Shown here piece after piece: positions 3,962-36,223 of a stretch of DNA of 37,136 bases. The DNA is from Bacteroidota bacterium. GTDB lineage: Bacteria > Bacteroidota > Ignavibacteria > Kapaibacteriales > UBA961. The notes beneath the pieces were generated by a model. The model searched no databases. It had not been told where the DNA came from and saw only the letters and a program-made list of their open reading frames with translations. Numbering within the stretch: position 1 is the stretch's first letter; the number at the start of each line of letters is the position of its first letter. A program made the translations under genes and the position numbers. The stretch spans positions 1 to 37,136 of the forward strand of contig JAFDZU010000092.1 of NCBI GenBank assembly GCA_018266765.1. Direction: 5' to 3'.

Positions 3962-5284
3962 TTATATATTTGTTTCTTTTAAAATTTCTTCAATAAGAAT
4001 ATCTAATCCGATGTTCAACTGTTCATCGGTAATAACTAATGGCGAGAGGATTCTAATAACATTTTTAAATGTACCTGCACCGAGAAGAATTAAACCACGT
4101 TCTGCTCCATTTTTGATAATTCGACTACATAATTCACCATCAGGTTGAGATGGATCCCCATTTTTTACAAATTCAATTCCAACCATAGCACCGATACCAC
4201 GAACTTCTCCAACTGCTGAACATTTTTTTTGCAGAATATTAAAACGATTTGTAATAATAGAACCAATTTTAACAGCTCTTTCGTTTAGATTTTCATCCTT
4301 CATAAACTGAATAGTCGCGAGTGCAGCGGCACAACAAACAGGACTTCCGATATATGTTCCACCGATTGTTCCTGAAGCAGCCGCATCCATTATTTCTGCC
4401 CTCCCTAGCACAGCGGCAATTGGCATTCCTGAGCCAAGCGACTTTGCATAGGTACTAATATCAGGGACTACATTATAGTTTTGCCAAGAAGCCCACTTGC
4501 CTGTACGGCAGAAACCGCTTTGAACTTCGTCCATAATGAGCATGATTCCATGCTCATCACAAAAAGTGCGCAACCCTTCGAGATATTTTTGGGGAACAGG
4601 ATTAAATCCGCCTTCACCTTGGACTGGCTCGATGATAATCGCCGCAAGATTATTGAGGTCAACTAAATTATGGACACTTTCATGCAGTCTTTGTAATTCC
4701 CGTGCTACAAATTCATCATGATTTCTATTACCATGATAACGGTAAAAGTTAGGGAATGGTAAGCGATATATTTCCGGAGCAAATGGTCCACAATTTAATT
4801 TGTATCCAATTTTACTGGTAAGTGTCATCGCCATCATTGTTCTTCCGTGGTAAGCATCGGTATAACAAAGAATTGCAGGACGTTTCGTTGCTTGACGTGC
4901 AATCTTTATTGCATTTTCAACTGCTTCAGCTCCGGTGGAAACCAACATTGCCTTAGTTCTTTCACCATGGGGAAGAATCTCTACAAGCTTCTCACAGAGT
5001 TCTATATATGGTTCATATGTAACTACATTAAAACTTGTATGGATATATTTTCCTGCCTGCTCTCTAATTGCCTCAACAACTGGACTGGGACAGTGTCCCG
5101 CGTTTACAACTCCTATCCCACCGGCAAAATCAATCCATTCTTTACCGTCAACATCTTTTATTAATGCACCCTTTGCATCTTGGACTGTAGCGGTATTAAA
5201 GACACCGACACCGTTTGCCACGATATTTTTTCGCCGTTCAAAGAGATTTTGTGACTTTATCGTATCTTGTAGCATAATTCCCAT
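3962..5284 (-). CDS. Class III aminotransferase, GABA/omega-amino acid type
   Basis: PLP-dependent class III transaminase of 440 residues, the usual length for 4-aminobutyrate or 5-aminovalerate transaminases, which move an omega-amino group to 2-oxoglutarate. Visible signatures are FAGGIGVVNAGHCP (53-66), STGAEAVENAIKIAR (116-130, phosphate binding), EPVQGEGGF (219-227), MDEVQSGFCRTG (251-262) with PLP-contacting D252, Schiff-base lysine K281 in STYAKSLGSG, and GGTYIGSP (308-315). The overall sequence is closest to GabT/DavT-like enzymes rather than acetylornithine transaminase, but substrate preference is inferred. It is the first gene of the four-gene operon. The start at 5284 has no strong ribosome site, and an ATG three codons later (5275) is an equal alternative. 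Confidence 0.88.
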   Translation of the reverse strand: MGIMLQDTIKSQNLFERRKNIVANGVGVFNTATVQDAKGALIKDVDGKEWIDFAGGIGVVNAGHCPSPVVEAIREQAGKYIHTSFNVVTYEPYIELCEKLVEILPHGERTKAMLVSTGAEAVENAIKIARQATKRPAILCYTDAYHGRTMMAMTLTSKIGYKLNCGPFAPEIYRLPFPNFYRYHGNRNHDEFVARELQRLHESVHNLVDLNNLAAIIIEPVQGEGGFNPVPQKYLEGLRTFCDEHGIMLIMDEVQSGFCRTGKWASWQNYNVVPDISTYAKSLGSGMPIAAVLGRAEIMDAAASGTIGGTYIGSPVCCAAALATIQFMKDENLNERAVKIGSIITNRFNILQKKCSAVGEVRGIGAMVGIEFVKNGDPSQPDGELCSRIIKNGAERGLILLGAGTFKNVIRILSPLVITDEQLNIGLDILIEEILKETNI

Positions 5285-5314
5285 GAATAGTGGTTGAATT
5301 AAATTTTTATTTGC

Positions 5315-5327
5315 AAAGCATTGCTTT
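5315..5327. promoter_or_regulatory. Short dyad upstream of the amine operon
   Basis: AAAGCA-T-TGCTTT is a 6+1+6 perfect dyad about 31 nt upstream of the aminotransferase start. Its position fits an operator or leader element for the operon. It is short enough to occur by chance in AT-rich DNA. Confidence 0.2.
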
Positions 5328-5687
5328 TATCTTCCGTCATTTTTATCTAGTTATTCTAAAGATAACTCAAAAGTCAAAAATTGAATAAATCACTAAATAA
5401 TATAATTAAAATCAATAGTTAATAATTTATCTATATATTAATAACTAAATAAGTAACGACTTTTTTAATATAACGAATAAACGTACCAATTCCAAAATTT
5501 TCACTCTAAATTTTCATTAAAATTCCTCGTTTTTTTACTGAAAATAAAAATATATTAGCAAGCTTTTTTTAAACTGATTTTACAGAGTAAACTTCCATTG
5601 ATATTAGCCAAACAATAACATCTAACTAGTTTTTAAAAAGTCAAGTTGCAGTAAATAACGGTATGAATTGTTATTGTTCTTATTTCA

Positions 5688-30936: not shown

Positions 30937-32385
30937 TTAATGAATAATTTGAAGGACAGTGCCACTTCGATAGTTCTTCGACTTTACCAGAACAATATAT
31001 GCACCTGACGGAATCCCAGCCGTTGGCAGAAGCATTCCTTCACTACTTCTGCTTAGAGTATTTACATCAAATTGCTGTACCATAGTTCCGAGTATTGTAT
31101 AGAGTTCTACTTGTCCTTCGCCCCAAAGCGGCGGAGTTTTGAGAAGTATATCGCGCTCCGAAGTAGTCTGCCATTGTAACTGTTGCAAGCCCGCTTCAGG
31201 TATGTTTTCTTCCACGCTATTGACTGCCGACCGTGTAAAGTGGATATGAACACTGTCGTAGCCCGGGTGGTAGTAGAACCTGAGGTACTTAAGGGTATTT
31301 TTCCCATCACTCGTTAAATTGAATTCTGGTACATTACTTATCATCCTTAATGGTAATCCAATATAGCCTCCATTTGCCTCCACAAACGCAACATAAAACA
31401 TATCAGCCGAATCTTTAAGGAGACTAAATTGATAAGATGTTTCACCATTGAAATACCAATGTTGTTCGTCACTTATACTATCTGGGAGCCATTGTTGAAA
31501 TGGGTAAAAATGGGAACATGATAGACTCTTTATGGTCGAATCCATAGTAATCGTCAGATTCCACCGGGGAATTGGCTTAGAATAAATTGGTGTAATTGCT
31601 AGGTCTATTTCTCCGGTTATTGCCCTACAACCAATAGTATATTCAAGTTGATTATTATAGGGATTGTTAAATTCTATTCCATCAAGATACCTTCCTTTTG
31701 TTTCCCAGCGAAGCATCTTCCTGTCGCCAAAAAATTTACTGGCATATAAATTATAGGTATGCTCGACATCTTGCAGTAGTTCTATTTTATCAATAATAGT
31801 ATCCTCCAATTGATGCTGGTAAGTTTCTACATAATTTGGTGCATACCAATAATTACCTATTTTTTCCTTTAGTTCTAATCTGCTCTCCTCTTCTACGCCT
31901 AAATACAACAGCACACGAGAGAGCCTATACCCCAAGTGGTATTCTTTAAAGATTATTTCGTCGGGGCTATTATCACTCTTTGGTGTGAATCTATCGTAGA
32001 TTTGAATGCCATAAAATGGTCCATTAACCTCACCTTTGCCATTGCGTAAGGCAGGGTCAAACATTGTCAGATTTTTGAATACAACATAAATCACTCGTTT
32101 ATCCTCACTTAACCAAACATGAGCATCGGGAAAGGGCTTAAGGTTCTTAGGATTACTAATATCTGCATTTTTATCCTCAGTATGGGTTGTAATTTCAACA
32201 ACCTTACCACGACTATTTTCAAGAGTCGGAATAGGATTGGATATACTAAACCACATAGTATCTCTACAGCCAATATCACCACGTAAATTTGTACCTGTAA
32301 TCCAGATATCACCAGCACGAGTAGAGAGAGTTGTAGCTAACACTATAATAGTCAATCGCAAAAGTATTTTTATGTTTTTTTTCAT
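30937..32385 (-). CDS. Exported hypothetical protein with T9SS-type C-terminus
   Basis: Protein of 482 residues behind a good ribosome site (GGAG), with a signal peptide ending near STRAG (25). I do not recognise the 370-residue middle region. It is beta-rich and aromatic, with GDIGCRDTMWFSISNP near the start, many Tyr/Trp residues and few repeats, so it may be one large domain rather than tandem modules. The last 80 residues (from about 400) resemble a type-A T9SS sorting domain (LKTPPLWGEGQVELYTILGT, GIPSGAYIVLVKSK), although the usual PNP motif is degenerate. The gene follows the interrupted small exported gene by 36 nt and precedes the Kre9-like gene by 23 nt, so they probably form one transcript. 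Confidence 0.75.
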   Translation of the reverse strand: MKKNIKILLRLTIIVLATTLSTRAGDIWITGTNLRGDIGCRDTMWFSISNPIPTLENSRGKVVEITTHTEDKNADISNPKNLKPFPDAHVWLSEDKRVIYVVFKNLTMFDPALRNGKGEVNGPFYGIQIYDRFTPKSDNSPDEIIFKEYHLGYRLSRVLLYLGVEEESRLELKEKIGNYWYAPNYVETYQHQLEDTIIDKIELLQDVEHTYNLYASKFFGDRKMLRWETKGRYLDGIEFNNPYNNQLEYTIGCRAITGEIDLAITPIYSKPIPRWNLTITMDSTIKSLSCSHFYPFQQWLPDSISDEQHWYFNGETSYQFSLLKDSADMFYVAFVEANGGYIGLPLRMISNVPEFNLTSDGKNTLKYLRFYYHPGYDSVHIHFTRSAVNSVEENIPEAGLQQLQWQTTSERDILLKTPPLWGEGQVELYTILGTMVQQFDVNTLSRSSEGMLLPTAGIPSGAYIVLVKSKNYRSGTVLQIIH

Positions 32386-32694
32386 AGGTCTATCTCCTAA
32401 TTAATGTTTTGAAAATAGTAGTTACCACAAATCCACTCGCCAATAATAAATTACATTTTTAATCTTATATTCGGTCTGTGATTTATCATACTTTCCAAAA
32501 AAGTTGCTACGACTTCCATAAAAGTGTTGCTCTCCCATTAATTCCTGTTGGGGATCGGCAAATGCTTTGAAAATACCCGAGAGTATTCCCAATCCTGTTT
32601 CAAAAATTTGAACTACGTCATTGGGCTTCAACGAAGTATTGGTGGTATCAGTTCTATTTGTACCAAGACTATCAACTGCATTCTTTATTCCACC

Positions 32695-32731
32695 TGATCT
32701 ATCCCCGATATGATAGACAGTATAAAGAGAG
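32695..32731. repeat. Left terminal inverted repeat of the IS
   Basis: It begins TGATCTATCCCCGATA and continues through TAGACAGTATAAAGAGAG. It matches the reverse complement of the right end apart from a few substitutions and small gaps. It is the 3' end relative to the transposase genes. Confidence 0.85.
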
Positions 32732-32732
32732 A

Positions 32733-33554
32733 CTATTTGATGTTATAAAATTGAAGTTCATATTCTATGGGAGCCATAAAGTTGATTGCAGAATGCAACC
32801 GTTGTCTGTTATAAAACACTTCAATATATTCAAATATACTTATTTCTGCCTCTACTCTTGTCCTGTAGCTCGTTTGATACACTAATTCCGTCTTCAACGT
32901 ATGAAAAAAGGTTTCCGTAATTGCATTGTCATAACAATTACCTTTACCACTCATACTCTGCCGTATTGAATTATTCTTCAATATGTTCCGTACTTCGTTA
33001 CTTGCATACTGAACACCTCTGTCCGAGTGAAACACCAAGCCGGAGCTCGGTCTCCTTGATTGCACCGATTTGATAATCACTTCACTGACAATCTCTTTGT
33101 TTAAACTATTCGATACCTTCCAACCGATGATTTGCCTACTGAATATATCCAATACTACAGCCAAATAAATCCAACCTTCCGATGTCCAAATATACGTTAT
33201 ATCCGATGTCCATACCTGATTCGGACGCTCCGTCGAAAATTTCTGTTGGACGATATTCTCCGATACTGCGTGGCTATGATTCGAATTCGTGGTTGCTTTG
33301 AACTTCTGCTTCACGATTGAACGAAGACCATGACTATTCATTATCCGTGCAACTCGTTTCTTACTCGTCTTGATGCCTCGTTGACGTAATGCTTTTTCTA
33401 TACGCATTGAACCATAAATCTTACGGCTTTTGTCATATTCCGTCTTGATGGCTTGGTATAATGCTTCGTCGGATACTCTGCTATTACTGACCTTGCAAGC
33501 TCGCCAACGATAATAACCGCTCGACGGGATTTCGATTGTTCGGCATATTCTCAC
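32733..33554 (-). CDS. IS3-family transposase orfB (DDE integrase core)
   Basis: Catalytic subunit of 273 residues from the GTG at 33554. An HTH_21-like segment (YGSMRIEKALRQRGI) is followed by the rve integrase core with the DDE triad: Asp in WTSDITYI, Asp in VFHSDRGVQYAS and Glu in NCYDNAITETFFHTLK. All three are present and the frame is unbroken. The frame stays open upstream to the end of orfA and is -1 relative to it, meeting at AAAAG near 33607-33611, where ribosomal slippage could produce an OrfAB fusion as in other IS3 elements. The GTG start given here may therefore be internal to the working product. Confidence 0.92.
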   Translation of the reverse strand: MRICRTIEIPSSGYYRWRACKVSNSRVSDEALYQAIKTEYDKSRKIYGSMRIEKALRQRGIKTSKKRVARIMNSHGLRSIVKQKFKATTNSNHSHAVSENIVQQKFSTERPNQVWTSDITYIWTSEGWIYLAVVLDIFSRQIIGWKVSNSLNKEIVSEVIIKSVQSRRPSSGLVFHSDRGVQYASNEVRNILKNNSIRQSMSGKGNCYDNAITETFFHTLKTELVYQTSYRTRVEAEISIFEYIEVFYNRQRLHSAINFMAPIEYELQFYNIK

Positions 33555-33601
33555 TACTCCATACTCCGAGCGATGGTGCTCTACAAACTCATACTTGTCT
33601 G

Positions 33602-33895
33602 CTATGCTTTTGAAAATATGCCGAGTGCTTTTTTTAGGATATCACGCTCTTCCTGTAATACCCGATTCTCTTGACGGTGTCTGCGCAACTCTTCCTCCTG
33701 AGGGCTTTGATGACCTTTACCCGGAAACGATCCCTCGGCATCCTTAAGATATTGATTCCGCCATGTGTGGAGCGTATTTTCATTTATCCGTAATTCTCTC
33801 GATAATTCAGATATCTTCTTTGCTTTACTTACTATCAAACGTACTGTAGTGATTTTGAACTCTTTGTCGAATACTCGTTTCGATTGCTTTTCCAT
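33602..33895 (-). CDS. IS3-family transposase orfA (HTH protein)
   Basis: DNA-binding subunit of 97 residues of the HTH_Tnp_1 type. Residues 8-50 hold the helix-turn-helix (FKITTVRLIVSKAKKISELS, then NENTLHTWRNQYLKD). Residues 65-92 form the leucine-zipper-like coiled coil that mediates dimerisation (EEELRRHRQENRVLQEERDI). It ends GIFSKA just before orfB, with AAAAG in the overlap. It recognises the terminal repeats and limits transposition in related elements. Confidence 0.92.
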   Translation of the reverse strand: MEKQSKRVFDKEFKITTVRLIVSKAKKISELSRELRINENTLHTWRNQYLKDAEGSFPGKGHQSPQEEELRRHRQENRVLQEERDILKKALGIFSKA

Positions 33896-33952
33896 GTTAT
33901 TACCCTCTTAATGGTTGTTGAACTATAAATTTAACGCTTTTTTGTCGTTTTA

Positions 33953-33991
33953 CTCTCTTTTTATAGTGTCTACAGTATCGGGGGCAGATCA
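33953..33991. repeat. Right terminal inverted repeat of the IS
   Basis: Read on the minus strand it begins TGATCTGCCCCCGATA and continues through TGTAGACACTATAAA. It lies 57 nt upstream of orfA and should carry the transposase promoter. Its first three bases (TGA) form the stop codon of the interrupted gene. Confidence 0.85.
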
Positions 33992-34174
33992 GTCGACAAG
34001 TTGTAAGCATGCAGGTTTGATAGGCGTTTGTGCGGTAGAAATAAATGTATTACCCATAATTATGTATGTCAGAAGGATACTTAAGATTGATAACGCTTTC
34101 ATTTTAACCTCCTTAAATTAGGAACAGTAGTTTGGGGAATGTAGGCAATAAAGATAAATAAGTTAACTAACCTG

Positions 34175-36223
34175 CTATTTGATAATAGCAACAGTTCTTG
34201 ATGCAATCCTGCCACCTACCTGCACCCGCAAGGTATAAACGCCGCTTGAAAGGTTGTCGGTCTTGATGGTTGAACGTCCACTGCCAACGCTGTAACTGCC
34301 TACACACGAACCGTATAAGTCGTAGAGAATTATCCTACAGTCTGTTGTTTCATTTTCAAACTCTACGGTTATATGGTCGCTTGCGGGGTTCGGGGAAATG
34401 TGCACTTCGGGCATTTCTACAAGGGGTTGTTCTTCAACGGACGAGAATTCAAGGTAATTACCAATATAAAATACTCCCTGCATTTGTGTCCCTGCTACAA
34501 GAATGTTTTCAAAGGGTCTATATTCATAAATAACAAATGTAGTAACTACACTTTTTATTAGATCTGTCGGATTTTGATGCCATGAACTACCCTGATCTTT
34601 CGATACAAATACTCCTGCATCTGTTCCTACTAAGAATTTTCCGTAAAGGATGGCTACACAATGAACATTGGTATTAGATAATCCATTATTGATTGCAGTC
34701 CACGACGTGCCTCCATTGTTTGAAAGAAACACTCCATTCGGCGTTCCGGCAAGCATCCGATTGCCTTCAACATAGAGTGCCTGAATCGTTGTAGCTGTGA
34801 GTCCAGAGTTCTTTTATCTCCATGACTGACCATCATTGGTGGAAATATAGACACCGTTGTCTGTACCTACTGTAACGGTTCCATTATTTACTACAATAAC
34901 CCGTACCGCAGAAGTACCTACCTGAGTTTGCTTCTCCCAGGTCTTAGAGCCGTTTTTAAGGCGATAAATACCGCTATTGGTGCCGGCATACGATGATGTA
35001 CCATTTACTCCAAGAGAAAGAATAGTACCCGACAAACCAACTTGAGTATAGGTAATGGGCAACACCAATGAATCTGCAAATGAATAGATTCCATCTTCCG
35101 TTCCAGCGTATATCGAAGTGCCGTTTTGTGCTAAGGAATAATAGGTGTGCTGCTTATTATCATCAATATCCCTCCGTACATATTTAGAGCGTCCATATAT
35201 AAAATAACCATCATCTGTGCCTATATGAAGTCCCACTTGTTCACTCATCAACATCGAGTAAATGGGATAGAAACAATTTACTAGCGACGTACTTTTTATA
35301 TAGTTGCTGGAACGGTACATTTCATCCATACCAAAATACATCGTCTTGCCGATTGCCGTTGCATACGTACCGATATTTTGCTCCGTAGATTCCCATGTTG
35401 CACCATTATCTTTGGAACGATTTTCACCTGCAAAAACCCATCCGTCGAATATAAAGACAGACCTAACTCCGCTACCTACGTTTGTTACAAGTGTCCAAGT
35501 AGCACCTCCGTCTTCGGAACGTAACAGATCACCACTACTAAATATTGATAGTTCTGTCATAAATATTGTTGTACCACTCTTAAAGTACTTACCACGAACT
35601 ATACTATTACCTACCGTCTGAATTGCTTTCCATGTATTTCCCCCGTCAGCGGATATTGATATTCCTTTTTGTCCTGCACTTTGATCATCAATCCATACAC
35701 TATCGCCATCGGCTAAAAATACGGTCGGTACGGTTGCTTTTACAAGTTGCCAGGATTCGCCATTGTCAGTTGTGCGATAAATTCCATCCGACCCACCGTT
35801 TGTGCCCGCACCAGTAAAGATTGCTTTTCCATTGGTCACCATAGACTGAATAAACAATTCGCTTCCGGTTAGTTTCCATGAAGTGCCATCATTATTCGTT
35901 CGGAACACTCCTCGTGAAGTAGCAATAAAAACCCAAGAGTTAATAGACAACATTTCAAAGATTTGGAGCCGCTGCTTGTCAACACTCAATCCATTATTTA
36001 CCATTTCCCATGTTTTACCATTGTCCGATGAGCGAAGCACTCCTTTTTCTTGTGTTCCTGCGAAGAGGACAGTGCCATTATGAGCCATACAGCAAATATC
36101 GCTGCGATATGCGGCCTCGTTAGGCACCCACTCAATAACCTGAGAGAAAGATAATTGAGGTAAAAGAAACATTATGCTTATTAGCAAAAGGACCCATTTT
36201 ATACTAAACTTTATTTTTTTCAT
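34175..36223 (-). pseudogene. T9SS-exported BNR/Ycf48-like propeller protein split by an in-frame TAA
   Basis: The full frame is 682 residues if codon 470 is read through. A signal peptide ends at LPQLSFSQ (28). Propeller repeats of the form LRSSDNGKTWEMVNNGL recur about every 45 residues to about 590. A T9SS sorting domain (VHISPNPASDHITVEFENE to VAIIK) ends it. The TAA at 34816-34814 falls inside a repeat, between GQSWR and KNSGLTATTIQ, and the frame continues without shift on both sides. A single base change from GAA or CAA would explain it. As written, the first product (469 residues) loses its sorting domain, and an internal ATG at 34756 heads the remainder. It is the first gene of the exported-protein run next to the IS. 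A sequencing error is the chief alternative. Confidence 0.82.

Follow-up and report, generated by a model that had tools for sequence, protein, structure and literature searches.

Elements of the IS3 family, of which IS150 is a studied example, combine two open reading frames in −1 phase, a slippery run of A residues with a hairpin, and an rve/DDE domain, within about 1.3 kb of DNA bounded by TG...CA ends. The element described here shares all of these features, and its relatives carry 3-bp target duplications, within the 3-5 bp normally left by IS3 elements; however, the copy in the window (the whole 37,136-nt stretch of Bacteroidota DNA that was analysed) has no such duplication. Absent duplications have been documented in the E. 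coli LTEE, in PMC11708052, which lists as causes the decay of the duplication, recombination of one IS copy with another, and deletion next to the element. According to this source, a duplication was found in 69/69 IS movements without deletion and in 0/14 IS150 events whose deletions spanned 14 to 48,894 bp, and all 14 of the latter were attributed to an adjacent deletion that came later; the authors also propose that insertion may occur without a TSD.

The initial annotation of the window described a 1297-bp IS3 element, lacking a target duplication, which splits a small exported-protein gene whose product is cut by a TGA in the IS end, and whose two halves would otherwise join in frame into a 127-residue protein. 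Follow-up bore out the IS3 assignment together with the limits of the element, its lack of a duplication and the premature stop, whereas the parental 127-residue protein was not established.

The IS3-family element and its ends

The insertion sequence occupies positions 32695..33991 (1297 bp) and carries its transposase genes on the minus strand; it was recognised with transposase profiles, and its boundaries were defined by the ends of related copies. The first gene, orfA (33602..33895, minus strand, 97 aa), represents the helix-turn-helix part of the transposase (PF01527, E 7.7e-13; NF033516 positions 1-85). The second, orfB (32733..33554, minus strand, 273 aa), represents the DDE catalytic part (PF00665, E 4e-26; Pfam domains rve, rve_2, rve_3 and HTH_21) and scores 326 bits against the NCBIfam model for IS3 family transposases, NF033516, with a cut-off of 160. 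Both reading frames are open, with orfB in −1 phase relative to orfA. A run of seven A residues in phase A_AAA_AAA (33629..33635, minus strand), read from the sequence and translated, would allow −1 slippage to yield a 387-aa OrfAB. A branched hairpin of 85 nt (33540..33624, minus strand) begins 4 nt past this run, as compared to the spacing rule of 4-10 nt given for hairpins of this kind in PMC4066793. The stretch 33530-33640 folds at −31.1 kcal/mol, against −18.28 ± 3.09 for shuffled sequences (z −4.15), with 1/200 shuffles folding equally well. With orfA and orfB open, and with the A7 site and hairpin in place, the element, which is complete, appears intact and competent and is probably still mobile. 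Since its best match among the plasmid matches listed reaches only 47.6% protein identity, it probably has no name as yet within the IS3 family, although this reading may be wrong. Elsewhere in the same genome, contig C14 (C14:47345-47680; L002 1501-1836) contains 336 bp of a closely related IS in a decayed state, with 84% identity and the same TGATCTGCCCCC end.

The left terminal repeat, TGATCTATCCCCGATA (32695..32710, plus strand), was defined by comparison with related copies, and the right terminal repeat is TGATCTGCCCCCGATA (33976..33991, minus strand); the right end, as the reverse complement, reads TGATCTGCCCCCGATACTGTAGACAC. These inverted repeats are imperfect, matching at 20/26 positions, with TG at the start and CA at the end. 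Both junctions carry GATC, a short palindrome resembling a 4-bp target duplication. This interpretation was rejected, because related copies have the tips TGATCT, TGACCT or TGATCC with 3-bp duplications outside them, and GATC thus belongs to the terminal repeat of the element. Tips TGATCC and TGATCT were found in G001:C201, TGACCT and TGATCT in G072:C2 and C14, and TGATCT in four related pieces of G094, with TAATCT in one piece of G002; outside the tip letters, the two-ended relatives show the duplications GAA (G001), and ACC and ATA (G072). With TGATCT as the tip, the true flanks on the plus strand of the window read ACC before the element and GTC after it, i.e. no target duplication is present. 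Palindromic GATC at both junctions mimics a target duplication while belonging to the element ends, which calls for caution.

A missing duplication is not rare among relatives of this element. Besides the window, 18 related places were considered; four (G068, G124, G134 and G153) were dropped as their ends were unreadable, and in the 14 others visual inspection of the top-scoring inverted pair served to pick the readable ends. An exact 3-bp duplication was present in 8/14 (G001, G072 twice, G155, and four of five places in G151), and was lacking in the other 6 (G084, G126, G162 twice, one place in G151, and G167). In the single-contig genome G151, a related IS is present in five near-identical copies (L060, L065, L066, L067 and L068), of which four have 3-bp duplications that differ from one another and the fifth has none; this set appears well suited to studying how duplications are lost.

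The lack of a duplication could also arise in the course of assembly, since two contigs misjoined through a repeated element would likewise show none, and the genome is indeed a draft in 106 contigs. The full element is single-copy, however, which offers an assembler no cause to misjoin; among the matches listed, the only other one, a diverged piece of 336 bp, is internal to its contig, and none lies at a contig end. An assembly artefact is accordingly hardly probable at all.

Gene fragments on either side of the element

Fragment 1 (33992..34102, minus strand) comprises 37 codons, with a start codon, an apparent signal peptide (a judgement by eye) and about 12 more residues. Its translation start features a good ribosome-binding site, AAGGAGG, followed by a 5-nt spacer and ATG. 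The stop codon is the TGA at 33989-33991, that is the first three bases of the right repeat at the very tip of the element, so that insertion at a codon boundary of any element with such a tip will halt translation immediately.

Fragment 2 (32422..32694, minus strand) consists of 90 codons (32425-32694) and a stop (32422-32424) located 36 bp ahead of the start of the next gene. Its frame is stop-free over the 90 codons, with 2 to 11 stops in each of the remaining five frames. Its coding score of 0.302 bits/codon lies close to that of 90-codon windows of true coding sequence (0.312 ± 0.098, n=271), 42% of which score no higher, whereas off-frame windows (n=1355) score −0.140 ± 0.192, and only 2.1% of these reach the value of fragment 2. 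Fragment 2 is a real coding sequence. The open frame runs on for 16 codons within the element, a stretch that offers no start codon, and the earliest possible start is an internal TTG at 32631. Fragment 2 hence represents the 3' coding part of a gene that lacks its start and, having no start codon ahead of this TTG, is probably silent. The genome at present probably holds a null allele of this small exported protein.

The flanking genes, which feature T9SS sorting domains, displayed particularities of their own. The BNR-repeat/T9SS gene (34175-36223, minus strand) is interrupted by a single in-frame TAA at codon 470 (34814-34816), whereas its paralogue on contig C59 (L048 4676-6718) has an uninterrupted frame of 680 aa and, as judged by eye, a glutamine at the corresponding position. 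The 482-aa gene (30937-32385, minus strand) shows approx. 53-75% DNA identity over most of its length to its own-genome paralogue on contig C84 (L047, about 4083-5528), rising to 93-96% in the final 275 comparable bases, a pattern suggesting that the C-terminal sorting region underwent recent gene conversion or exchange.

An uninterrupted relative was found in none of the genomes and contigs searched. Among 99 genomes, 98 of them relatives, fragment 2 was detected in its own genome only. It matched nothing but itself when its own genome was searched at E up to 10, or in 395 genomes of the phylum, and in 391 genomes of the class it matched itself and one sequence in G064; the three genome sets overlap. 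The weak G064 match (E 0.0013, 34% over 48 aa), within an ORF that looks WD40-like by eye, was judged spurious. Weak pieces of fragment 2 obtained by tblastn in L048 (best E 0.002 in a small set of four loci) were attributed to chance; they sit antisense to a long ORF taken by eye for a ribonucleotide reductase. Scans of genome_contigs and viral_contigs gave no match to fragment 2, and neither Pfam nor NCBIfam assigned it to a family; the best E values were 0.051 against PHROGs and 0.43 against PDB, and its predicted fold is poor (mean pLDDT 54.9). Within its own genome, fragment 1 matches one further sequence, at E 0.3. The loci of the two paralogues on C84 and C59 were considered as sources of an empty site and discarded, as no related small gene adjoins either, and a scan of genome_contigs with the 482-aa neighbour and its paralogue returned nothing.

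Origin of the junction

Fragments 1 and 2 lie on a common strand and in a common phase, and phase is kept upon removal of exactly 1297 bp and likewise of 1300 bp. The layout, with a start before the element, a stop after it, and agreement in strand and phase, suggests that both derive from a single gene, and the phase agreement mildly favours a loss at the junction of either zero bases or a multiple of three. The same observations argue against the fragments stemming from two different genes joined at the element by IS-IS recombination or by a large adjacent deletion. Nevertheless, agreement in phase alone has a chance of 1 in 3, and such a fusion would account for the lack of a duplication, loss or recombination being the usual cause documented in the sections of PMC11708052 on this subject. 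No homologue of fragment 2 links it to fragment 1, and contig C14 of this genome does carry another, older IS piece that is closely related to the element (84% identical), although it is too diverged to have served as a direct recombination partner. We consider such a fusion of two genes doubtful, if quite conceivable.

Alternatively, the element may simply have inserted into a gene of 126 or 127 codons with nothing else lost, the duplication having later mutated or never having been made at a break. The exact phase obtained once 1297 bp are removed fits this well, as does the proposal of duplication-free insertion cited above, but the published duplication-free insertions, in the sections of PMC11708052 that treat them, accompanied large rearrangements. 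Decay of the duplication also fits poorly with transposase genes and a fragment that are undamaged. In a model assuming neutral mutation, fixed ratios and a duplication once present, the joint chance that at least 2 of the 3 duplicated sites mutated while fragment 2, orfA and orfB all remained open is at most 0.00105 over 21 settings, and at most 0.027 when fragment 2 alone is counted. A mutated-away duplication is thus unlikely, and adjacent deletion or IS-IS recombination would explain its absence better. Simple insertion as a whole appears unlikely. Its most specific form, in which the element was captured at a double-strand break with no target cleavage of its own and came to lie base-perfectly, with neither duplication nor loss, in a 127-codon gene, is very improbable; if true, it would be an example from nature of an IS3 insertion that is targeted to a break and leaves no duplication.

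The missing 3-bp duplication beside an undamaged element hence casts doubt on the annotated parental protein. The 37 and 90 codons do stand in one phase after removal of the element, but the missing duplication suggests that either bases were lost at the junction or IS-IS recombination took place, and a parent of 127 residues should not be assumed; probably the parent exceeded 127 codons, or else two genes contributed one half each. The explanation that we prefer, and to which we attach about an even chance of being right, is insertion of the IS3 element into a small exported-protein gene with loss of adjacent DNA then or afterwards. A complete element would have inserted into a target gene located between the BNR-repeat gene and the T9SS-type gene, all three on one strand. 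During or after insertion, an adjacent deletion, probably small, would have removed DNA adjoining the element together with one copy of the 3-bp duplication, leaving fewer codons than the parent gene probably possessed. Fragment 1 would then yield only the signal peptide and about 12 residues, fragment 2 would be silent, and the gene would be null.

Comparison with duplication-free IS150 insertions

The locus is an ordinary case of an IS3-family element disrupting a small orphan gene, with a junction that has probably been rearranged since. In silico excision of a duplication-free element is no safe way to restore a gene. The IS150 events in the LTEE sections of PMC11708052 benefit from a known ancestor and a measured deletion, whereas the deletion beside the window element is one that we infer. 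Even so, it is those IS150 insertions with adjacent deletions that the present locus resembles, in combining an IS3-family element, the lack of a target duplication and a truncated sequence alongside.
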